The notes under the pieces: model-generated
Told to the model about the DNA's origin: nothing
The model's input: only the letters and a program-made list of their open reading frames with translations
Databases searched by the model: none
Program-made: the position numbers and the translations under genes
Shown here: in pieces, positions 699 through 14,045 of the stretch
Layout of the letters: each line of letters begins with the position of its first letter
Position numbering within the stretch: position 1 is the stretch's first letter
DNA from: Epilithonimonas mollis
GTDB taxonomy: Bacteria; Bacteroidota; Bacteroidia; Flavobacteriales; Weeksellaceae
Length of the DNA: 64,000 nucleotides
Direction: 5' to 3'
NCBI RefSeq assembly: GCF_900142325.1
Contig: NZ_FRAM01000004.1
Location: 186,001 to 250,000 of the forward strand

Positions 699-1151
699 TT
701 ATCTGATAAACAACCGGTCATCAAAAGTAAACTTTTCTATCTTCTTTATTTTTATTCCAGAAAAATCCTGGTGTCTCGGATTAATGATATAATTAAACTC
801 GCCCTGAACAGCAGCAGAAGGAATCTTCAAAATGAGAAATTTTCTTTCTTTAAGAAATCTGTCTCCGATTTTCTGAGTATCGTGAATATGAGGAAAACTG
901 TTCCAATCCTTCGGAAGGCGTTTTGGTTCCAGAAAATCAATATCCGGAATCTCAATATGAGTCAAACGATAATCCTTTGGCAAAATCCCTAAAGGAATAT
1001 GAACCGCAATCTCTGCCACACAAAGCGCAATAGACTGAGCCGTATAAAGTGCTGCATTTCCTTTGCTGTTCCATCTTCCGCCAGCTATCTCTGCACCTTT
1101 CCCGCTAAGATCATCCGCATAGATCTCCTTGCTGAGCCTGTAAACGATCAT
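699..1151 (-). CDS. RES-domain toxin (probable NAD+-degrading)
   Basis: A 150-residue protein of usual RES length. Family residues are visible: GGRWNSKG (Arg26), YTAQSIALCVAEIAVH (Tyr36, Glu47) and KIPSAAVQGEFNYIINPRH (Ser112, His127). RES toxins of characterised RES-Xre pairs hydrolyse or phosphorolyse NAD+ and arrest growth. It follows the Xre-type antitoxin with a 5-bp gap, which is the canonical order. The catalytic activity is inferred from the family. Confidence 0.92.
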   Translation of the reverse strand: MIVYRLSKEIYADDLSGKGAEIAGGRWNSKGNAALYTAQSIALCVAEIAVHIPLGILPKDYRLTHIEIPDIDFLEPKRLPKDWNSFPHIHDTQKIGDRFLKERKFLILKIPSAAVQGEFNYIINPRHQDFSGIKIKKIEKFTFDDRLFIR

Positions 1152-1156
1152 TGGGA

Positions 1157-1615
1157 TTATGCTAAAATGCCGTGTTCTATCCGCGTAAGCTCATCCATAA
1201 GAAGAGAAATTCCAAAGCTGCTGCCCAGTAAATCCTGGGGTTTTGTTCTTCCCAATGCCATATTCTCCGTCTGCAACCAAATCAAAAAACCATCGGCCGA
1301 ACCAAAAACTTCTTCTCCTCTTTTGTAAAGGATTTCTATCTGCAGGATTTTTTCGGACTGTAGCGTATCAAAAGATTTCTCTTCTTTTTGGTAACGGGAC
1401 AAAGTCTTTGCGGAAATATGAAGAAAATCCGCCCACTCCTGCATTGTAAAAGGGAATTTTTTTGTAATATTATCGAATATCTTGAAGGATATCCCATGCT
1501 TTGCAATATCCATTAGTCGAAACAATCCTGCATCATCAAAGTTTTGATAACCATAGGCTGCTATAGGCTCATTAACTATATCCGAATGTGCTTTGGAAGG
1601 TGCGTATTTTTTCAT
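1157..1615 (-). CDS. Xre/MbcA/ParS-type antitoxin of the RES pair
   Basis: 152 residues. The middle holds a helix-turn-helix (around residues 55-85, EWADFLHISAKTLSRYQK), and the C-terminal third is the toxin-binding DUF2384-type domain ending in LGRTKPQDLLGSSFGISLLM. It sits directly upstream of the RES gene and would both neutralise the toxin and repress the operon. Two identical 12-bp palindromes overlap its promoter at 1642-1653 and 1663-1674 and are the obvious binding sites. Confidence 0.9.
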   Translation of the reverse strand: MKKYAPSKAHSDIVNEPIAAYGYQNFDDAGLFRLMDIAKHGISFKIFDNITKKFPFTMQEWADFLHISAKTLSRYQKEEKSFDTLQSEKILQIEILYKRGEEVFGSADGFLIWLQTENMALGRTKPQDLLGSSFGISLLMDELTRIEHGILA

Positions 1616-1734: not shown

Positions 1735-2562
1735 ATGAAAGTAAAACCAGAATTTGATCTTATTCCAGAAGATGGCTGGCGAAAAAAAATTTACGAAACC
1801 GTTTATTTATCGGATACTAAAGCTGGTAAGATATTCGATATAAGCCTGCTGATATTAATTATTTTCAGTACCGTTCTGCTGATGGTAGAAACCATACCCA
1901 TCATCAAATTACAATATTATAAAGAATTCTACTACGCCGAATTTTATATTACAATAATATTTACGATAGAATATATTCTGAGGATAATCTGCATCAAAGA
2001 CAGAGAAGAGTATATTTTCAGTCCACTTGGAATCATTGATTTTCTTTCCATTATTCCTTTCTACATCAGTCTATTTTTTCCAGTTTGGCATTTTGTGGCC
2101 ATTATCAGAATATTGAGAATACTGAGGGTCTTCAGGATTTTTAATCTGGCAGACTATATGCACGATGGCCGTTTTATTGTTTCTGCACTCAGGCACAGTT
2201 CGAGAAAAATTTATATTTTTCTTTTGTTTATGGTTATTTTCATCGTTATAATAGGGGCACTTATGTATGTTGTGGAAGGTGGAAAAAATGGATTCAGCAG
2301 TATTCCGCAAAGTGTTTATTGGGCGGTGGTTACTATCACAACCGTCGGATATGGCGACATATCTCCGGCAACACCACTTGGAAAATTATTATCAATTATA
2401 GTAATGCTTTGCGGTTATAGTATTATCGCTGTTCCTACAGGTATCGTGACCTCAGAATTCCGAAAACGTAGGGGAAGTGATATCCAATGCAGCCGCTGCG
2501 GCAATGAAGACAATGAAGACAATGCACGTTTTTGTAAGATCTGTGGTGAAAAAATAATATAA
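1735..2562 (+). CDS. Voltage-gated K+ channel with C-terminal zinc ribbon
   Basis: 275 residues with six predicted membrane segments. An arginine-rich S4 helix lies near residues 118-137 (IIRILRILRVFRIF) and the selectivity filter TTVGYGD at 202-208 between the last two helices. These are defining features of a KvAP-like tetrameric channel in the inner membrane. After the pore helix a short tail holds two CxxC pairs (Cys252/255 and Cys267/270), a zinc-ribbon typical of bacterial zinc-ribbon proteins but not a usual channel end. It converges on the patatin-like gene with a 3-bp gap. Confidence 0.93.
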   Translation: MKVKPEFDLIPEDGWRKKIYETVYLSDTKAGKIFDISLLILIIFSTVLLMVETIPIIKLQYYKEFYYAEFYITIIFTIEYILRIICIKDREEYIFSPLGIIDFLSIIPFYISLFFPVWHFVAIIRILRILRVFRIFNLADYMHDGRFIVSALRHSSRKIYIFLLFMVIFIVIIGALMYVVEGGKNGFSSIPQSVYWAVVTITTVGYGDISPATPLGKLLSIIVMLCGYSIIAVPTGIVTSEFRKRRGSDIQCSRCGNEDNEDNARFCKICGEKII

Positions 2563-2565
2563 TAA

Positions 2566-3363
2566 TTAGGACTTATAAAAGATTTCAAATTCTTCTTCAT
2601 TTTCGTAAAAGGTTCGCTTCGCCTCATCATAACCGATTTGGAAAATCTCTTCCAGTCTATGAGGTTTCCGCTCGAAAGTTCCATATTTTGATAATTTTTT
2701 AGAAGTAATAAACCAATCGCAAAACGCAAATTTATAAATCTCGGTTCTGTGTGATAACAATTCATAGGCGCGGGTAGTAACTGAACGTATGCTTCTCAGA
2801 TCATTCACCTCCACATCTTGTGGCGGTGTGACATAGACACCAATTATTTTATCACACTCATTATGAATGATATCTGCCGGAAAATTATTCAAAACGCCAC
2901 CGTCGCTGTACATTTCCTTTCCGATAAAATATGGCGTGGAAATACCCGGAATACAAGAAGAAGCAATAATGGCATCCACCACTTTATAATGTTTTTCAAA
3001 AACTTTTTGTTGTCCGCTAATCAGTTCTGTGGCAACGATTCTGACATCTTTATCCAGATCTCCCAAAGTAATATCTTTAAAAATCGGATTGAGATAAGTT
3101 GAAAAAATAGCTGATGAGACAAATCCAGGCTGATTAAACGTAAAATGCTTCCAGTTGAAAAAATAAACCGACTGAAAAAAATCCAAAATCTCTTCCGCTG
3201 TTTTTCCGAAAGCATATAAAGAACCGACGATGGAACCTGCGCTGCAGCATGAAATAACGTCTGGTTCTATATTCTTCTCCTTAAGAAACTTCAGAACACC
3301 GGCGTGAGCAAGTCCACGCGTTCCGCCTCCTGAAAGAACCAATCCTGTTTTCGAATTTTCCAT
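2566..3363 (-). CDS. Patatin-like phospholipase family protein with altered nucleophile elbow
   Basis: 265 residues. The oxyanion loop SGGGTRGLAHAG (11-22) and the catalytic Asp154 in DGG are present. Ser41 sits where the patatin nucleophile should be, but the usual G-x-S-x-G reads C-C-S-A-G, so the first glycine is Cys39. Patatins are Ser-Asp dyad lipid acyl hydrolases. This one is of the short RssA-like kind with no signal peptide, so it is probably cytoplasmic or membrane-peripheral. Whether it is active is open. Confidence 0.88.
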   Translation of the reverse strand: MENSKTGLVLSGGGTRGLAHAGVLKFLKEKNIEPDVISCCSAGSIVGSLYAFGKTAEEILDFFQSVYFFNWKHFTFNQPGFVSSAIFSTYLNPIFKDITLGDLDKDVRIVATELISGQQKVFEKHYKVVDAIIASSCIPGISTPYFIGKEMYSDGGVLNNFPADIIHNECDKIIGVYVTPPQDVEVNDLRSIRSVTTRAYELLSHRTEIYKFAFCDWFITSKKLSKYGTFERKPHRLEEIFQIGYDEAKRTFYENEEEFEIFYKS

Positions 3364-5897: not shown

Positions 5898-5912
5898 TTA
5901 TAAATAAAATAA

Positions 5913-5940
5913 AAAACACTTTTTTTTAAAAAAGTGTTTT
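5913..5940 (-). terminator. Terminator overlapping the end of the caspase operon
   Basis: AAAACACTTTTTT (5913-5925) and AAAAAAGTGTTTT (5928-5940) form a long A/T hairpin. The right arm encodes the last residues and stop codon of the 477-residue protein, so the operon ends exactly here. Confidence 0.65.
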
Positions 5941-7359
5941 ATTATTCGTGATTTCCGAAGGTGACTGGTTCAGTTTATCGTAGATATCTTTATAGGTATC
6001 ATAATTTCTTAACACCTGAGTTGCCGGTAAATTCAGCTTAGCAGCAACTTCAGAAACATTTCCGATGCTGTTGATGGTATTGGCAACATTAGTTTCAAGG
6101 TTTTCTAAATGAATTTCTCCAATTAATGAATTTAGTCTGTTTTCAATTACAATTTCAGTAGGCGGAGAAAAACTGTTTATTAGTTTTTTTCCCAGTTTTA
6201 TTATTTGATTATCCTTGGTGCTGATCGGAATTTTATCTGATTCGCTAATCATTTTAGTGTATGATTCAATCCATTCCTGCACATTATCGATCTTTGAAAA
6301 ATTATTCCAGAAGAGATCATACTTAACATGGTCAATTGCTCTGTCAATTAAAGATCCTGGTTTGAAAGGCATTTTTTTATCTATTGTATTGTTGGAATAC
6401 TTATTCATTATTGAAGAAATCACAGGGAGTTGTTCGTCGTTTCCATTGTGCTGGAGCTTGTCTGAAAGGAGAATCAGATCCGGCAAAAGCAAAAGCTGGC
6501 AATTTTCATAATCCAGTTTTTCTGACAGTTCTAGTTGAAGAATATGAATAAGGGTCATCAGATAAGGATGCTGCCTGATGATGCTGTGGTCTTTCTCGGT
6601 CAATAATTTGAAATTGCTGTAGTCCCTGTATGTGAAAAGAATTTTGTCCAGCACAAGGTACTCTTCTGCATCAGCGTTAAAGCAACATTTTTTTGTATAA
6701 AAGAAAAAACAGTTTTCAAAATCCGGCAAAGAGGAGTAACGGATAAAAAATTGTGTCTGGAAGCCATCAAAGATACAGAATGGAAAAATTCTACTATCAT
6801 TTCCATCAGTCCATTTCAGAAGATATTGACCTTCAGGCAGCCTACCAGAGAATGCCAGCCAGCCATAATCACTATTATATTTTGCATTTTCCGGACCTAA
6901 CTGATATAGTATTTCGTTATTATTTTTAATTATAGAATAATGTGGAAGCAAGTTTTCCATTATAATATCCGGAAACATATCCTTATCATATTTTGCAGCA
7001 AAAAGCAAGAAATCCGGATGATCTTCTGAACTTACAACAGTTGACATCTGACTGTATAGTTCGGCATTTTGGCTAAAATACTCATGGGTTGTCCTGAATG
7101 ATAGTATAGGAGCAACAGCGGGATAATTAAAATCAAACCGGAAACTCTTGTTGCTGTCAACAAGCAAAAGATATTCTTGGTAATAATCTATCAAGACTGC
7201 TTTTAACTGATAAACACCAGGATCAAGCTCTAGTTGCAAACATTCTGAGTTCCCTTCAAAAACAATAGTGAACATTCCATCGATCACAGTCAATTGTAAT
7301 CCTTCGAGTTTTTGATTGAAGGAAATATTTATTTGATATTTATTTTTAGAATTCATCAT
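5926..7359 (-). CDS. Unrecognised 477-residue protein, third gene of the caspase operon
   Basis: No known family was recognised and there is no signal peptide or membrane segment. The N-terminal ~210 residues look like two beta-sandwich units: each ends in a strand-rich segment of the kind ELDPGVYQLKAVLIDYYQEY (about 46-65) and LPEGQYLLKWTDGND (about 174-188). The remainder is alpha-helical and hydrophilic. A C-terminal helix pair follows, with a VSEVAAKLNLPATQVLRNY stretch that resembles a small helix-turn-helix-like hairpin. The start (two adjacent ATGs at 7359 and 7356) overlaps the caspase gene by up to 14 bp, so translation is likely coupled. It may be a sensor, scaffold or protease target; this is inference. 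Confidence 0.75.
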   Translation of the reverse strand: MMNSKNKYQINISFNQKLEGLQLTVIDGMFTIVFEGNSECLQLELDPGVYQLKAVLIDYYQEYLLLVDSNKSFRFDFNYPAVAPILSFRTTHEYFSQNAELYSQMSTVVSSEDHPDFLLFAAKYDKDMFPDIIMENLLPHYSIIKNNNEILYQLGPENAKYNSDYGWLAFSGRLPEGQYLLKWTDGNDSRIFPFCIFDGFQTQFFIRYSSLPDFENCFFFYTKKCCFNADAEEYLVLDKILFTYRDYSNFKLLTEKDHSIIRQHPYLMTLIHILQLELSEKLDYENCQLLLLPDLILLSDKLQHNGNDEQLPVISSIMNKYSNNTIDKKMPFKPGSLIDRAIDHVKYDLFWNNFSKIDNVQEWIESYTKMISESDKIPISTKDNQIIKLGKKLINSFSPPTEIVIENRLNSLIGEIHLENLETNVANTINSIGNVSEVAAKLNLPATQVLRNYDTYKDIYDKLNQSPSEITNNKTLF

Positions 7360-8338
7360 AGCTCATTGTGTTTTCAGAATAATTAAAGATTGCTTTCGGA
7401 GGTTCGTTGTTATTATTATCTTTTAATAAAAAAGTACCTCTTCCAAGCTTTTTATGCCATTTATCACCAACTTTTACATTGGCTCTATACAATTCTGCGA
7501 ACTGGTGCGTCAGAAGAGAAACATTTGAATTCCTTTTAAAAATAATTTCATAATTATACTCAGCTGTCAATTGTTCAACTTCGCAAATTATGATTGAATC
7601 GCCACCTGTATCTGTAAATACAGTACCTTGCTGAATCTTATTAAATCTTTGGGCATAACTTAAAAAATTATCATCAATATGTTTTTTCAGATCCAGAGCA
7701 GTAACTTTTCCATTTCCATTTATATCGGCATCACCATTTAAACTATCAATCAGAAAGGAAGTAAAAGCTCCTCTTTTTTTATTGGAATCGATATCGATTT
7801 CATAACTAAGTTTGCCATAGATTGTAGAATTACAAACGAATAATTTCGGATTTCTGTCACCTACTTTATTTTGCCAATCGCCGATAGGAGGAAGTCCCTC
7901 AATTGTTGTATCATGTTCCCTGCAGCAGTCAAGAAAGATCAGAACCTCATCAAAAGCGCCTTTATTTATTATACCTGTGGTATATTTCAGACTTGAAATA
8001 CAATGGTTTATATATACTGAACTCCAATAACGCATACACAATGCGGTATTTATAAAAGTATTACCAATGCCGTGGCCGGAAAAATAAAAGTAGAGACGGT
8101 TATTTTCATTCTTCCTTTTTTTGGCATCTTTTACAATATCCTCGATAGCTTTATCAATCTCTGGCCCAAGAACTACCGTATTAGCCACATCGGACTTAAA
8201 GAGTTTCAGATTCTGATTGCTATCACTGATAAGCTTTTTATCCGTTAAAAACTTAGCAAAAGCTTCAGCATCTGCTACAGCACCTTTTAGTGGTCTTTGA
8301 TCATAATGGTCAATACCAATTACAATTGCATACTCCAT
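7346..8338 (-). CDS. Caspase-family cysteine protease (metacaspase-like)
   Basis: 330 residues with the C14 fold markers: start strand YAIVIGIDHYDQRPLKGAVA, catalytic His89 in YFSGHG, and catalytic Cys in LDCCR (Cys139, with Cys138 adjacent). After the catalytic core a dockerin/EF-hand-like loop, DINGNGKVTALD (205-216), suggests calcium binding. A C-terminal ~100-residue beta-rich tail follows (residues 230-330). It has no signal peptide, so it acts in the cytoplasm. Its ATG directly abuts the TAA of the hydrolase gene, and it overlaps the next gene. Family membership is secure; substrate and trigger are unknown. Confidence 0.92.
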   Translation of the reverse strand: MEYAIVIGIDHYDQRPLKGAVADAEAFAKFLTDKKLISDSNQNLKLFKSDVANTVVLGPEIDKAIEDIVKDAKKRKNENNRLYFYFSGHGIGNTFINTALCMRYWSSVYINHCISSLKYTTGIINKGAFDEVLIFLDCCREHDTTIEGLPPIGDWQNKVGDRNPKLFVCNSTIYGKLSYEIDIDSNKKRGAFTSFLIDSLNGDADINGNGKVTALDLKKHIDDNFLSYAQRFNKIQQGTVFTDTGGDSIIICEVEQLTAEYNYEIIFKRNSNVSLLTHQFAELYRANVKVGDKWHKKLGRGTFLLKDNNNNEPPKAIFNYSENTMSYDEF

Positions 8339-9769
8339 TTAGATAGATTTTAATATCGATCTTAAGGTATAGATATCATTATCAAAATCTGCATGCTTCA
8401 GAGAATTTGAGCGCATACTTTCATCAAAGTTTATGGTATCGATAGACAATACAAGTTTATTCGCAGTTATAAAAGTGTTGAGCTTTTTCAATTCATCAAA
8501 AGCCGCATAACGTCCCTCGATCCTGAATTGTTCATGAAGTCCCATAATCTTGGCATCAACTTCGTCTTCAAATAATCCAGAAATCATATACAATAAAGAA
8601 TGCGTGTAAGTGTAAGGAATGCAGTGATCCCTTTTCTCATTCTTTTCTTCCATTGTAAACATTTTAAAATTCTTAACCAAGCCTTTATCCAATGCCGGTT
8701 TTCCTTTTTCGAGGAATAAATCCGTTCGGCAAGCCGGTGCTAAGAAAAATATATTATTAAACTTTATGGAACTAAAATTTTTATCCACTGCTTCCAACAA
8801 ATTACAAATAGCAATAGAACCGGCACTGTGGCCAATCAGCTCTATCTCAATAGTTTTACCCGTTGCTGACAGGCTTCCAACATGTTTATTTAACAAATTA
8901 AGAAAGTATGTGCCCGCATGCTGATTATCACCGGAAAGTCCTGCATTAGTTTCAAACATTTTGGCCGATTTATCTTTCATCTGTTTCCATCCCCATTGCC
9001 CAACCTTGTCAAGGTATATTTTTCTGAAAGCCTCTTCCATAACGGTCGGGTAAAAATCATGGTGGTTTTTTTTCAGATACCTTTTTAAAACGGCAAAAGA
9101 AATCTGTGCAACAACTTTAGCAATAGCAAAAAAACCACCTTTAGCGACTTCTCCATTATCATCACTTACATTTTTGATTTCCTCGGAACCCTCCGCTCTG
9201 ATTAAGTTCCTGCTTTCAGTTTCGAGTTGTGCATAAAACTGACTGTTGCTTTCATCTTCGTCATCAATTTGAAAACCGCCTCCTCCTTTAGAATCAAAAC
9301 TTTTATCCAGCTTTTCAAAGGGGGCAACTTTATGTTTTTCATCATCTATAGTCTCATCAGTCAGGTATTCTCCCCCTCCTCTTGCATCTTCAATCCCCAA
9401 TTTTTTTGCAACAATTTTAATGACAAATTTGACGACTTCCTGAAAAAGATCTTTACCGGCCAGTTCTTTCAGTTCCTTTAGATTCTGAACCAGAGTTTCT
9501 ATAGGACCTGTTTCCCAAACGAACGAAACAACGTGCCTTTTCAATTTTGTATCCGCAAAATAATTTTTCATGAGCTCCGCTGCGTTCATTCCATTTTTTT
9601 CACTTACCAAACCTCCATGGAAATAAATGACCAGCTTTTCAACCTCATTTTCATTAAGAAATTTAAAAATGTTATCGACGTCTGAAGATGTGGTGTGAAC
9701 TTTTCCTGAATCGCGAAATGTTCCATTAACACCAACATTGATGTAGTAATTCTTCTCAAGAGTTTCCAT
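8339..9769 (-). CDS. Cytoplasmic alpha/beta hydrolase (lipase/esterase-like), first gene of the caspase operon
   Basis: 476 residues. The oxyanion motif VIYFHGGLV (47-55) and the nucleophile elbow LIGHSAGS (Ser315) are clear. A strand plus acidic residue (FLAPACRTD, Asp350) and His390 or His412 could complete the triad. Between the two motifs lies an unusually long ~260-residue section with acidic and glycine-rich linkers (130-215) and an amphipathic region. This could be a lid or a protease-accessible loop. There is no signal peptide. It is the promoter-proximal gene of a three-gene unit with the caspase. A lipid, ester or amide substrate is possible. Confidence 0.82.
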   Translation of the reverse strand: METLEKNYYINVGVNGTFRDSGKVHTTSSDVDNIFKFLNENEVEKLVIYFHGGLVSEKNGMNAAELMKNYFADTKLKRHVVSFVWETGPIETLVQNLKELKELAGKDLFQEVVKFVIKIVAKKLGIEDARGGGEYLTDETIDDEKHKVAPFEKLDKSFDSKGGGGFQIDDEDESNSQFYAQLETESRNLIRAEGSEEIKNVSDDNGEVAKGGFFAIAKVVAQISFAVLKRYLKKNHHDFYPTVMEEAFRKIYLDKVGQWGWKQMKDKSAKMFETNAGLSGDNQHAGTYFLNLLNKHVGSLSATGKTIEIELIGHSAGSIAICNLLEAVDKNFSSIKFNNIFFLAPACRTDLFLEKGKPALDKGLVKNFKMFTMEEKNEKRDHCIPYTYTHSLLYMISGLFEDEVDAKIMGLHEQFRIEGRYAAFDELKKLNTFITANKLVLSIDTINFDESMRSNSLKHADFDNDIYTLRSILKSI

Positions 9770-10074
9770 TTTAATAAGATTTTGATGGTTATTATTAGTT
9801 TATTTAACTTAAAATCAATTCTTATCTATTTTATCAGGTAACAACCTTTATAATCTAACTCGAAACTACCGGCAGAAACCAAATTAACAGATTATCATCA
9901 TTATTAGTATTATGCCTACTAATTTAATAATTTTTTAAAATAAAAACCAAATAAAATATAAACAATTTAAACTATATCTAAAATACCGTTAAAGAAACGT
10001 ATTATCGGAATTGATTCTAATTCTTGCAGTCTGTCTCATTAAAAAATAACAAAGGATAAAAATCTTGAAGCAAA
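9770..10074. other. Upstream region of the caspase operon, no gene seen
   Basis: About 305 bp of very AT-rich sequence with no open frame worth calling. It holds a dyad ATTAGTA-N7-TACTAAT at 9903-9923, about 135 bp before the hydrolase start. No perfect Bacteroidota -7 box was found on the minus strand; TTAATTTG at 9886-9879 is one mismatch away. It also contains the untranslated end of the efflux operon, with no clear terminator hairpin. Confidence 0.5.
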
Positions 10075-10281
10075 TTATAAGGAACATTTCGTCCCATCTT
10101 TTTTCACCCCAAATTTACTAAGGATCATGTACATCAGACACCAGTTCGTGAGAGCGTGGATCCACATATTAATTCCTACAAAGCCAGTAAGCCAAAACCA
10201 GTTTGAGCTCACATAAATTCCTAAAAGCAGACTTCCCAAAATGAAAGTGCCTGCGATTGCATGTACTATTCTTGTTTGCAT
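10075..10281 (-). CDS. Small membrane protein of the YgaP/DUF2892 type
   Basis: 68 residues with two membrane helices and the family pattern of a short N-terminal R-I-x-x-x-G segment (TRIVHAIAGTFILGSLLLG) followed by FWLTGFVGINMW. In other genomes this module is fused to or adjacent to rhodanese domains. Here a rhodanese gene lies in the neighbouring operon. It is the last gene of the efflux transcript. Function unknown. Confidence 0.82.
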   Translation of the reverse strand: MQTRIVHAIAGTFILGSLLLGIYVSSNWFWLTGFVGINMWIHALTNWCLMYMILSKFGVKKDGTKCSL

Positions 10282-10300
10282 AATTTTTTATTATTTTTTT

Positions 10301-10492
10301 TTACTTATTATCAAAAACTGATACCAAGAGATAGCCCATTACTAATCCATAAATAGAACTATTAAAAGGGTTGGAAGTAATTGCACAGCTTCCTGTGCTG
10401 CAACCAATGAAGTAATAATACAGATATCCTGCAATGGCTCCTACTAGTGCTCCGATAAGCGATGGTACTCTCTTTTTACTTAAAATTTTCAT
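10301..10492 (-). CDS. Small membrane protein of the DUF6132 type
   Basis: 63 residues: a basic N-terminus, a glycine/alanine-rich helix (LIGALVGAIAGYLYYYFIG), a Cys-containing turn GCSTGSCA and a second helix. The paired cysteines in a short loop between helices suggest a thiol or metal function at the membrane. It overlaps the upstream PII-like gene by 17 bp. Function unknown; the family label is from recall. Confidence 0.78.
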   Translation of the reverse strand: MKILSKKRVPSLIGALVGAIAGYLYYYFIGCSTGSCAITSNPFNSSIYGLVMGYLLVSVFDNK

Positions 10493-10781
10493 CTTCTGAA
10501 TTTATTGTTACAATGTGAATCTGGGAAACAGTTTCCTGATTGGAGTTGAATTCGTTTATATTTTTATAAATGCTATCCACACAGTTATACTCTGAAAAAA
10601 CCGTGAAAAGAAGAGAATCTATAGCAATATCATCTTTTCCGAACCAGTTGTTCATTTCGTTTTTATCGTTTTTAAAACCTTTTACAGATTGATAAGAAAA
10701 TGATCTCACTCCCGAATTTTTAAGAATATTAATAACATCTTTTTCAAATTCTTCTACTGCGGTGATTAATAATAGTTTCAT
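10476..10781 (-). CDS. PII-like small protein linked to RND efflux
   Basis: 101 residues with a beta-alpha-beta ferredoxin-like opening (MKLLLITAVEEFEKDVINIL) and a matching second half ending in QIHIVTINSE. This is the size and layout of PII-like/CutA-like proteins. A PII subgroup (PII-NG) is known to accompany heavy-metal RND genes, and this gene lies 36 bp behind the RND permease. The Tyr-loop of classical GlnB is not present, so a nitrogen role is unlikely. Confidence 0.6.
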   Translation of the reverse strand: MKLLLITAVEEFEKDVINILKNSGVRSFSYQSVKGFKNDKNEMNNWFGKDDIAIDSLLFTVFSEYNCVDSIYKNINEFNSNQETVSQIHIVTINSEDENFK

Positions 10782-10817
10782 AAGATAAATGTTGAATTGT
10801 TGAAAACTTTATAGATT

Positions 10818-13800
10818 TTATGCTTCAAAAAACTTGTCATCAGATTCGGATTTTCTCTCCCATTTTTTTCTTTCAGTAGCATAATAAACCAACGGCACTA
10901 CAACCAATGTAAGCAATGTAGAAACTATTGCTCCGAAAACCAATGAGATAGCTAATCCCTGAAAAATCGGGTCAAAAAGAATGATGACTGCTCCAATTAC
11001 GACTGCTCCTGTCGTTAATAAAATTGGTGTTGTTCTCACAGCTCCTGCTTCGATAATGGCTTGTTTCATAGGAATTCCCTCTTTCAGACGGATTTCTATA
11101 AAATCGATTAAAAGAACGGAGTTTCTCACCATTACTCCAGCCAGAGCGATCATTCCGATAAAAGAGGTTGCCGTGAAGAACGCTCCTAAAAGCCAATGTC
11201 CTAAAACAATTCCGATGAGTGAAAGCGGAATCGCAACCATCATCACAATAGGCGTTTTGAAATTCTGAAACCAACCGACAATCAGCATATAAATAATGAT
11301 AATCACCACTGCGAAAGCAGTTCCCAGATCACGGAAAACCTCTAACGTAATCTGCCATTCTCCATCCCATTTTACGGTATAATTACTCTCATCTTCGGGT
11401 TGATTCATATAAAGTTCATTCATACTATAACCATTCGGAAACTGGATTTTTTTAAGCTTTTCATCCATTCCGAGAATGGCATAAGCCGGGCTTTCCAGTT
11501 TTCCTGCCATATCAGCAAGCACGTACACTACCCTTTTCTGATCTTTTCTATAAATGGTTTTGTCCAGTTTTTTCTCCTCCACTTTTACAAGATCGCTCAC
11601 CGGAACCATTCCCATTTGCCCTTTTACTTTTAGTCCTGTAATATCCTGAATATTAGATTTATCGGCATTTTTCAATTTCATAACAATATCTACAGGATCA
11701 CTAGATTTTTCATCGTAAAGGTTTCCAATTGGATACTCTCCCATCAGATAGGTCATATTGCCTACAATCTGCTGTGGTGCAACACCGTTCAACATAGCCT
11801 TTTCTTTATCCGGAACTAGCTTGAATTCTTTCTGTGGCGCTTCCACCATCCAATCGATATCCACAACATCATCGGTTTTCTTTAGAATATCTTCCACCTG
11901 TTTCGCTACTTTTATTTGTCCTTCATAATCAGGGCCGTAGATTTCTGCTACAATTGTTGAAAGAACCGGTGGTCCAGGCGGAACTTCTACTACCTTTACA
12001 TTGGCTTCGTATTTGGCCGCTATTTTCTGAATTTCCGGACGAATTGCTTTCGCTACATCGTGGCTTTGCTTATCACGGTCTTCTTTGTGCAAAAGATTGA
12101 CCTGAATATCTGCCGTATTACTACTTCCACGCATATCGTAATGACGAACCAAACCATTGAAAGTTATTGGTGCAGAAGAACCTACATAATTCTGATAGTT
12201 CACCACTTCCGGAACTTTTTTCAGATATTGCGCGATATCCTGAGTAACGGCTGAAGTTCTTTCCAGCGTTGTTCCTTCCGGCATATCGATTACTACCTGA
12301 ATTTCATTTTTGTTGTCAAACGGAAGCATTTTTACCGCTACCCATTTGGTAAAAAACGCTGCTACAGAAATCAACAGTAAAACCACAGTTACTCCCATCA
12401 TCGTCCATCGTTTTGATTTTGAATCTAACAGCGGTTGTTCAATTTTTTTATAGATCTTATAAATTCTGCCTGTTTCCAGACCTTGTTCTTCTTTATGATG
12501 TTGCTCATCTTTTACCTTTAATAAATGATAACCGAGATAAGGCGTCACCGTTAATGCCACAAAAAGGGAAAGCATCATCGCGATCGAAGCTCCAATTGGC
12601 ATTGGTGACATATAGGGACCCATCATTCCTGATACGAATGCCATTGGCAAAATCGCAGCAATTACTGTAAAAGTTGCTAAAATAGTAGGATTCCCGACTT
12701 CATTAATGGCATAAATTGCCGCTTGTTTGAACGGTAATTTTCTCATATGAAAATGCCTGTGCATATTTTCTGCTATGATGATACTGTCATCCACCACAAT
12801 TCCGACGACAAAAACCAATGCAAAAAGCGTGATTCTATTCAATGTATATCCTAAGATATAATAGCTGAATAAGGTTAAAGCAAACGTCAATGGAACTGAA
12901 AAGAAAACCACCAATCCGCCTCTCCAGCCCATTGCTAACATCACAAGAATTGTTACTGCCAAAATAGCAACGCCAAGGTGCATCAATAATTCTGAAACTT
13001 TGTGAGAAGCTGTTTCTCCATAATTTCTGGTAACTTCTACGTGTACGTCATTTGGAATCAGATTCTTCTTCAGCTCGTCTACTTTGGTAAGAATCTGCTC
13101 CGATATTTTCATCGCATCGGCACCTTTCACTTTGGAAACCGAGACCGTAACTGCAGGATATTCCGATTTGAATTTTTTGCCGCTTTCTACGGCGTTTCCG
13201 TATCCGAAACTTACATAATTGGCAGGATCTGAAGCACCGTCTTTAATCGTTGCGACCTGTTTCAGGTACACCGGCATATTCTGTGAAGTTCCGATAACCA
13301 GATTTTCAACATCTTCAGCAGAGTTTAGAAACTGACCTGTTGTCAGAAGATATTCAGAATCGCCTGAATCAAACTTCCCGGATTGTGAACTTCCGTTATT
13401 CGCCTGAATCATCTGCATTACAGAAATTGCATCGACGTTCAGTTCCGCCATTTTATCTTTATCTAAAACAACTTGTAACTGGCGGTTTCTGCCACCTATG
13501 GTTTTGGTAAGAGAAACATCTTTTATTTTTTTGATTTCGGAAGATAATTCTTCTCCGATCTGACGAAGCTGAAAGTCATTGTAATTAGCATTGTCACTCC
13601 ACAAAGTCAAGCCGAGCATCGGGACATCATCAATGGAACGGGTTTTCACCATTGGTTCCATCACACCTTTCGGAAAGATGTTTTTATTCTTCATTAGCTC
13701 ATCATAAAGCTTTACATAAGAACGTTCCGTATCTTCGCCAACATAAAACTGGACGATAATCATAGCCTGTCCGTTCATCGCCATAGAATGGATGTGTTCT

Positions 13801-14045
13801 ACACCTTTGATGTTGGAAATAATCTTTTCCAGAGGTTTTACGATACGGCTTTCCACTTCCTTCGGATTTGCTCCGGGATAACCTACCATTACATCCGCCA
13901 TCGGAATAATAATCTGCGGTTCTTCTTCTCTCGGTATTAATGTCGAACTATAAAGGCCAATAATCATCAAAGCAATCATCAACAGAATGGTCAATTTTGA
14001 ATTGATGAAAAACTCGGCGATACGTCCTGCGAATCCTTTTTCCAT
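10818..14045 (-). CDS. RND-family efflux permease
   Basis: About 1075 residues from the chosen start (MEKGFAGRIAEFF, ATG at 14045). A longer frame begins at 14078, but its first 11 residues are not family-like. Twelve transmembrane helices in two repeats, the proton-relay TM4 segment GIVVDDSIIIAENM and the PCR-type periplasmic domains (VMVGYPGANPKEVESRIV) are visible. It is the inner-membrane pump of a tripartite system driven by proton motive force, with the adaptor and TolC genes directly upstream. Substrate is not evident: the sequence is nearer the AcrB/HAE-like kind, yet the small neighbours suggest metal or thiol-reactive compounds. Confidence 0.93.
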   Translation of the reverse strand: MEKGFAGRIAEFFINSKLTILLMIALMIIGLYSSTLIPREEEPQIIIPMADVMVGYPGANPKEVESRIVKPLEKIISNIKGVEHIHSMAMNGQAMIIVQFYVGEDTERSYVKLYDELMKNKNIFPKGVMEPMVKTRSIDDVPMLGLTLWSDNANYNDFQLRQIGEELSSEIKKIKDVSLTKTIGGRNRQLQVVLDKDKMAELNVDAISVMQMIQANNGSSQSGKFDSGDSEYLLTTGQFLNSAEDVENLVIGTSQNMPVYLKQVATIKDGASDPANYVSFGYGNAVESGKKFKSEYPAVTVSVSKVKGADAMKISEQILTKVDELKKNLIPNDVHVEVTRNYGETASHKVSELLMHLGVAILAVTILVMLAMGWRGGLVVFFSVPLTFALTLFSYYILGYTLNRITLFALVFVVGIVVDDSIIIAENMHRHFHMRKLPFKQAAIYAINEVGNPTILATFTVIAAILPMAFVSGMMGPYMSPMPIGASIAMMLSLFVALTVTPYLGYHLLKVKDEQHHKEEQGLETGRIYKIYKKIEQPLLDSKSKRWTMMGVTVVLLLISVAAFFTKWVAVKMLPFDNKNEIQVVIDMPEGTTLERTSAVTQDIAQYLKKVPEVVNYQNYVGSSAPITFNGLVRHYDMRGSSNTADIQVNLLHKEDRDKQSHDVAKAIRPEIQKIAAKYEANVKVVEVPPGPPVLSTIVAEIYGPDYEGQIKVAKQVEDILKKTDDVVDIDWMVEAPQKEFKLVPDKEKAMLNGVAPQQIVGNMTYLMGEYPIGNLYDEKSSDPVDIVMKLKNADKSNIQDITGLKVKGQMGMVPVSDLVKVEEKKLDKTIYRKDQKRVVYVLADMAGKLESPAYAILGMDEKLKKIQFPNGYSMNELYMNQPEDESNYTVKWDGEWQITLEVFRDLGTAFAVVIIIIYMLIVGWFQNFKTPIVMMVAIPLSLIGIVLGHWLLGAFFTATSFIGMIALAGVMVRNSVLLIDFIEIRLKEGIPMKQAIIEAGAVRTTPILLTTGAVVIGAVIILFDPIFQGLAISLVFGAIVSTLLTLVVVPLVYYATERKKWERKSESDDKFFEA

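Follow-up and report, generated by a model that had tools for sequence, protein, structure and literature searches.

A conserved three-gene module predicted to couple a paracaspase-type protease to an alpha/beta pro-hydrolase in Epilithonimonas mollis and distantly related bacteria

In bacterial gasdermin systems, a protease triggers a death effector. Canu (CanABC), with which Klebsiella aerogenes resists phages, relies on a caspase complex to activate a pro-nuclease that is gated by insertions (PMC12799240), and Kaur et al. 2020 describe caspase-type VMAP systems as always adjoining an alpha/beta-hydrolase gene, from which joint action was inferred (PMC7159879). LypABC, a CARD-NLR-like system of Caulobacter, is likewise tripartite and causes protease-dependent lysis (PMC13236601). 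Here, we describe a compact operon encoding an alpha/beta hydrolase, a caspase-family protease, and a third protein (hereafter, the trio) on the minus strand of a 64,000-nucleotide stretch of the Epilithonimonas mollis genome (NZ_FRAM01000004.1, positions 186,001 to 250,000; hereafter, the window).

Among the described systems, Canu is the closest in mechanism. It comprises three genes, its caspase has been compared with MALT1, and a partner protein is complexed with that caspase; furthermore, its effector is predicted to be blocked by insertions, and activity depends on conserved Gly-containing sites within these insertions (PMC12799240). The effector of Canu, however, is an MBL-fold nuclease, whereas the predicted effector of the trio is an alpha/beta hydrolase encoded first in the operon, and with no MBL-family match in any trio protein, membership in Canu was rejected. 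The ternary VMAP systems combine VMAP-C with vWA and MoxR partners, none of which is matched in the trio, and neither the third protein nor the cleavage sites figure in the passages of the VMAP description that were consulted (PMC7159879). No relative of the window hydrolase or caspase was found within about 5 kb of 20 VMAP-C loci in trio-bearing Streptomyces; VMAP-C is wholly absent from 12 of the 22 searched genomes carrying the trio or the hydrolase, and the loci examined in the rest have no member of the trio families nearby. The missing VMAP-C and the unrelated surroundings of the VMAP loci thus rule out assignment to that system. A gasdermin system was rejected as well, given that no gasdermin match was obtained in Pfam, NCBIfam, or PADLOC; the effector of the trio is a predicted serine hydrolase. 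LypABC relies on trypsin-like proteases and an NLR ATPase, in contrast to the caspase and putative pro-hydrolase of the trio, although LypC combines trypsin with an endonuclease, as do the third proteins of two loci, L010 and L011 (PMC13236601). The first-pass annotation had recognized no described system with exactly this gene set, and none was found in the literature searched, which lay mainly outside subscription papers and bioRxiv preprints.

A seven-sequence hydrolase alignment was searched against 84,980 species genomes, yielding 71 hydrolase loci in Bacteroidota, Proteobacteria, Streptomyces, Chloroflexi, Planctomycetes, Verrucomicrobia, Deinococcota, and others. Because the hydrolase alone served as the query, the neighboring genes count as independent evidence. 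All three genes occur together at 59 of the 65 loci that are free of a contig-end cut, including four in which the caspase and the third protein are fused and two that are decayed; the remaining loci comprise one partial case and five with the hydrolase alone. The profiles of the caspase and the third protein were iterated inside the loci found, a procedure that may inflate weak matches, but almost every full-length case was matched at an E value of 1e-70 or lower. An independent reverse search with the third protein covered 395 Bacteroidota genomes and found it at full length in just the three that have the trio; the hydrolase had been detected in five of these 395. The genes of all 65 tabulated trios lie on a single strand with conserved short gaps, and the pairwise distances of the three proteins are correlated (Spearman 0.63-0.71, n = 58), with none of 500 permutations exceeding 0.20. 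The trio is a conserved module across distantly related bacteria; a chance cluster is ruled out by its conservation and by the restriction of the third protein to trio genomes, and the concern raised at the outset, that homologues of the three genes might rarely be neighbors, fails against these counts.

The module also shows signs of mobility. A search of 147 relatives found neither the hydrolase nor the third protein. The window hydrolase is 80% identical to that of Prolixibacteraceae and 64% to that of Chitinophaga, whereas its identity to the proteins of Flavobacterium, which belongs to its own order, is only 56-57%, pointing to transfer between lineages. A plasmid search recovered the matching gene order on plasmids of Mesorhizobium and Rhizobium. 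At locus L123 (7959-12233), the whole trio lies on a viral contig, between tyrosine integrases and YqaJ/recombination-directionality genes, and is a phage-carried, prophage copy.

The caspase is the only trio protein that passes a Pfam cut-off (Peptidase_C14, E 2.6e-19). A profile of 53 caspase sequences compared with the PDB matched metacaspases and MALT1 only. His89, Cys139, Asp23, Asp137, and Glu180 are each invariant (53/53), and the His89-Cys139 catalytic dyad in a caspase fold conforms to the paracaspase/metacaspase subfamily C14B. Human MALT1 is an Arg-specific protease of the same subfamily, in which Asp365, Asp462, and Glu500 bind the P1 arginine and set the arginine specificity (PMC4357240). 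Asp137 and Glu180 of the trio caspase align with MALT1 Asp462 and Glu500 (HMMER), and Asp23 occupies the position of the helix-1 aspartate that matches Asp365 in the alignment to metacaspases; these residues make up, at the residue level, an acidic S1 pocket for Arg or Lys at P1. The DxCR motif is shared with MALT1 as well. A C-terminal Ig-like domain on the caspase is a further mark of Canu; in the trio caspase, the last ~100 residues appear to be beta-rich, judging from the alignment. The trio caspase differs from MALT1 in that it is bacterial and encoded in an operon beside one predicted substrate, and no Death or CARD domains were seen.

The AlphaFold model of the hydrolase (mean predicted local distance difference test score, pLDDT, 88; predicted template modeling score 0.90) matches the serine hydrolase 1vkh in VIA (Z 11.7, 204 residues, root-mean-square deviation 3.8) and, at Z of about 10-10.7 and among many alpha/beta hydrolases, lipases, the type VI secretion system effector Tle3, and PlaB. 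Foldseek produced no significant PDB match at E 0.001, so that the placement among alpha/beta hydrolases comes from VIA; in Pfam, only sub-threshold similarity to DUF900 was detected. The GxSxG nucleophile elbow (GHSAG, with near-invariant Ser315), the invariant His459, and the fold jointly identify an alpha/beta serine hydrolase. Ser315 and Cys139 of the caspase are the catalytic residues named in the first-pass annotation, and their conservation bears out both assignments. Lipids are candidate targets, to which fold similarity is the one pointer.

The fold of the hydrolase is conserved across the family, and its middle (residues ~125-210) is variable. Two conserved sites bound this segment. 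Among the 64 caspase-linked hydrolases, site 1 (R130) carries K/R in 62 and is followed by G/A/S in 59 and by Thr in 5, and site 3 (K210) carries K/R in 63, followed by G/A/S in all 64; a basic residue is present at a possible middle site (site 2, K161) in 36. When every alignment column of the three proteins is considered, sites 1 and 3 are the sole ones in which a basic-small pair exceeds a frequency of 0.9, the next-ranked being an R-G within the caspase fold (0.79), and the insert columns are otherwise weakly conserved. In a test that depends little on the alignment, 37 of the 39 clusters formed at 60% identity have a (K/R)(G/A/S) pair at a distance of 24-32 residues on the N-terminal side of His237, compared with a mean of 9.4 and a maximum of 20 in 2000 shuffles. 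In the AlphaFold model, the only hydrolase segments with a pLDDT below 50 (128-130, 162-164, and 203-210) coincide with sites 1, 2, and 3, respectively.

The sites also track the protease. Both are retained in 61 of the 64 caspase-linked hydrolases but in only one of the six without a caspase neighbor (Fisher p 2.7e-5, an optimistic value given that the sequences are related), the other five having lost at least one site. At L045, a lone copy in a genome that carries the trio elsewhere, the site positions read Q-G and H-G, and at L041 one site is lost and Ser315 is replaced by Ile; no family caspase was present in the L041, L064, L080, and L087 genomes. In fused or second-copy hydrolases, the insert itself is absent (3-4 residues, whereas the sites of caspase-linked proteins are a median of 109 residues apart), and the insert-free natural hydrolases of L015, L017, L019, and L066 retain the Ser-His residues. 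A MALT1-type pocket in one protein and conserved R/K-G/A/S sites in its partner make a closely fitting pair, as would be expected of an enzyme and its substrate. Cleavage of the hydrolase by the caspase at the conserved sites, which the first-pass annotation had placed in the linker-rich middle, is therefore strongly predicted from the bounding sites, the low-confidence loops, the erosion of the sites where the caspase is missing, and the pocket. The third protein had been offered as an alternative substrate, a proposal that is not favored given that the column scan detected no conserved basic-small column in it.

The AlphaFold model of the third protein (pLDDT 86) consists of two beta-sandwiches (residues 8-75 and 117-222) and a helical half. 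Residues 4-81 resemble Cna-B/transthyretin-like sandwiches (VIA Z 8-9), a common arrangement; the middle and helical parts gave no informative fold match, and nothing in Pfam, NCBIfam, or PADLOC matched the protein. Each of the three possible pairings is represented by a fusion protein at one locus or more: the caspase is fused to the third protein at L018/L056 and L061-L063, the hydrolase to the caspase, with an N-terminal amidase domain, at L015 and L019, and the third protein to the hydrolase at L066. The last case is a 1468-aa protein of Hymenobacter (9565-13971) that combines a third-protein domain, Amidase_2, a papain protease, and an insert-free second hydrolase copy, and sits right behind normal hydrolase and caspase genes. 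Other hydrolase relatives that lack the insert are fused to papain-like (C1) peptidases (L017, L013, and L004), perhaps representing a second protease-hydrolase class. At its C-terminus, the third protein exchanges varied modules, namely, trypsin plus a PLD or NucA-type nuclease (L010 and L011), pYEATS (L014, L076, L079, and L083), a thermolysin-type peptidase (L084), and, in an 1805-aa protein of Planctomycetota (L085, 8999-14416), TIR, CHAT, and AAA ATPase domains. That the third protein scaffolds or restrains the caspase, as CanB does in CanAB (PMC12799240), is suggested by the caspase fusions and by the 14-bp overlap that couples the two genes; it resembles an immunoglobulin (Ig)-like sensor or scaffold more than a cleavage substrate.

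Taken together, these observations make it probable that the trio is one protease-controlled module for cell death or growth arrest, in which a paracaspase-type protease would excise the insert and so activate a pro-hydrolase. The hydrolase would be made as an inactive pro-enzyme, with residues ~131-210 gating or lidding the serine-hydrolase active site, and the caspase would be restrained or assembled by the Ig-like third protein. Upon sensing a trigger, the third protein would activate the caspase, which would cut after Arg or Lys ahead of a small residue, at R130/G131, K210/G211, and sometimes K161/G162. With the insert removed, the freed hydrolase might damage membrane lipids or another ester-containing component, and the cell, probably one under attack, would be arrested or die. 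The broader proposal, of a widespread and so far unnamed immune or cell-death system in which a MALT1-like paracaspase turns on a lipase-type zymogen by excising its insert, with the third protein as an exchangeable sensor hub that bears TIR-CHAT, trypsin-nuclease, metallopeptidase, or pYEATS modules at other loci, is put forward tentatively, with the chances close to balanced.

Several points weigh against this mechanism. Hydrolases lacking a caspase neighbor are a small set that includes divergent members and members without Ser315, so that the loss of sites could reflect general decay; one of the set, at L038, retains both sites; the sites might instead serve in docking or as helix caps; and a PADLOC scan of 113 neighbors of trio loci returned scattered single matches, for which there is no baseline. 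The retention at L038, and the general use of short linear motifs in disordered loops for binding, would suit a model in which the R/K-G motifs are hinges or docking points for the caspase or the third protein, the true substrate lies elsewhere (host, phage, or the third protein), and the hydrolase is a parallel effector. Such an arrangement seems quite improbable: the conserved element is merely a basic and then a small residue, the P1-P1' pair expected from the caspase pocket, with little else conserved nearby, and the third protein has no equivalent site. Still less probable, in our estimate, is that the caspase cuts a constitutively active hydrolase in order to switch it off, with the product or the interaction serving as the signal. 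The conserved sites and gene linkage fit inactivation as well as activation, but two sites neatly bounding a dispensable insert suit the removal of a gate better than the destruction of a fold, as do the insert-free hydrolases that keep Ser-His, and the tested precedents, Canu and the gasdermins, are activations. From these precedents and the insert-free hydrolases, we infer activation.

What the module is used for is a separate matter, and here the competing explanation, that the trio serves stress-response or developmental cell death or interbacterial competition rather than phage defense, is somewhat unlikely but has more in its favor. Many neighbors are ordinary genes, BTAD (SARP-type) regulator domains occur in six of the 113 (mostly in Streptomyces), an enrichment in defense genes is not clear, and LypABC illustrates that an immune-like module may serve other ends (PMC13236601). 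Patchy presence, spread across phyla, plasmid and prophage copies, and swaps of TIR, CHAT, trypsin, and nuclease modules are, by contrast, typical of conflict systems. Accordingly, the defense role suggested in the first-pass annotation stands in part: the patchy spread, transfer between distant lineages, prophage copy, and module fusions, along with the NACHT-FGS and caspase-subtilase genes that abut two of the trios, are indirect support for an anti-phage or conflict role, next to the scattered single matches among the neighbors.

In the window, the three open reading frames are intact and form a tight operon (Table 1), as originally described: the caspase ATG follows the hydrolase stop codon with no gap (0 bp), and the caspase gene shares 14 bp with the third gene, an overlap also present in trios of Bacteroidota, Alphaproteobacteria, and Gammaproteobacteria. 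Stretches resembling signal peptides or transmembrane segments are lacking from all three proteins, with hydropathy over 19 residues reaching at most 1.48; for signal peptides, this agrees with the original description. The hairpin at the end of the operon was not picked up by a terminator scan, being too G+C-poor for that scan. The placement beside decayed genes given in the first-pass annotation is supported in part. The trio locus is a synteny breakpoint, and the two flanking genes lie ~294 kb apart in a complete relative; a clean empty site was not found in relatives, where the flanking genes are not neighbors, and the flanking debris could not be assigned to an insertion sequence, no copy being found elsewhere in the genome.

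Table 1. Features of the trio operon, in window coordinates
Feature	Position	Strand	Basis or remark
Third-protein gene, 477 aa; two Ig-like beta-sandwich domains and a helical half	5926..7359	-	AlphaFold; predicted sensor/scaffold of the caspase
Caspase-family protease gene, paracaspase/metacaspase type, 330 aa	7346..8338	-	Pfam Peptidase_C14
Alpha/beta hydrolase gene, 476 aa; predicted pro-enzyme and effector	8339..9769	-	AlphaFold, fold match, GHSAG
Catalytic Cys139 codon of the caspase	7922..7924	-	DCCR aligned to MALT1 D-M-C-R (HMMER)
Catalytic Ser315 codon of the hydrolase	8825..8827	-	GHSAG, nearly invariant
Predicted cleavage site 1, Arg130/Gly131 of the hydrolase	9380..9382	-	Near-invariant basic-small pair, low pLDDT
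Possible middle cleavage site 2, Lys161/Gly162	9287..9289	-	Basic in 36/64, low pLDDT
Predicted cleavage site 3, Lys210/Gly211 of the hydrolase	9140..9142	-	Near-invariant basic-small pair, low pLDDT
Variable insert, hydrolase residues 131-210; proposed removable gate	9140..9379	-	Low column conservation
Hairpin and T-tract over the third-gene stop; likely operon end	5911..5943	-	Read directly from the sequence

Other genes of the window and of trio loci elsewhere were recorded. About 4 kb from the trio lies a complete RES/Xre type II toxin-antitoxin pair above the NCBIfam cut-offs (699-1615, minus strand), and a gene nearby encodes a patatin-like phospholipase (2566-3363, minus strand) whose similarity to the phospholipase effectors of CBASS is below threshold; between them is a gene for an ion-channel protein carrying a zinc ribbon at its C-terminus (1735-2562, plus strand). 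An open reading frame within positions 10001-64000 matches the PADLOC model of an RtcR-type CARF-AAA-HTH regulator (1e-113). At L037, a caspase-subtilase fusion gene (11278-13872) starts 18 bp past the third gene, and the trio of L053 adjoins a NACHT-FGS gene.

If the proposed mechanism is true, the caspase-to-lipase cascade would be one not previously described, and a lipase-like hydrolase would join gasdermins and gated nucleases as an added class of proteolytically activated effector in bacterial immunity. It would also provide a bacterial caspase with MALT1-type specificity acting on a single dedicated partner, in which the exact scissile bonds are predicted, and the idea that caspases mean cell death would become directly testable by mutating two residues encoded by a single small operon. 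A profile with which dozens of further loci can be found is a further gain.

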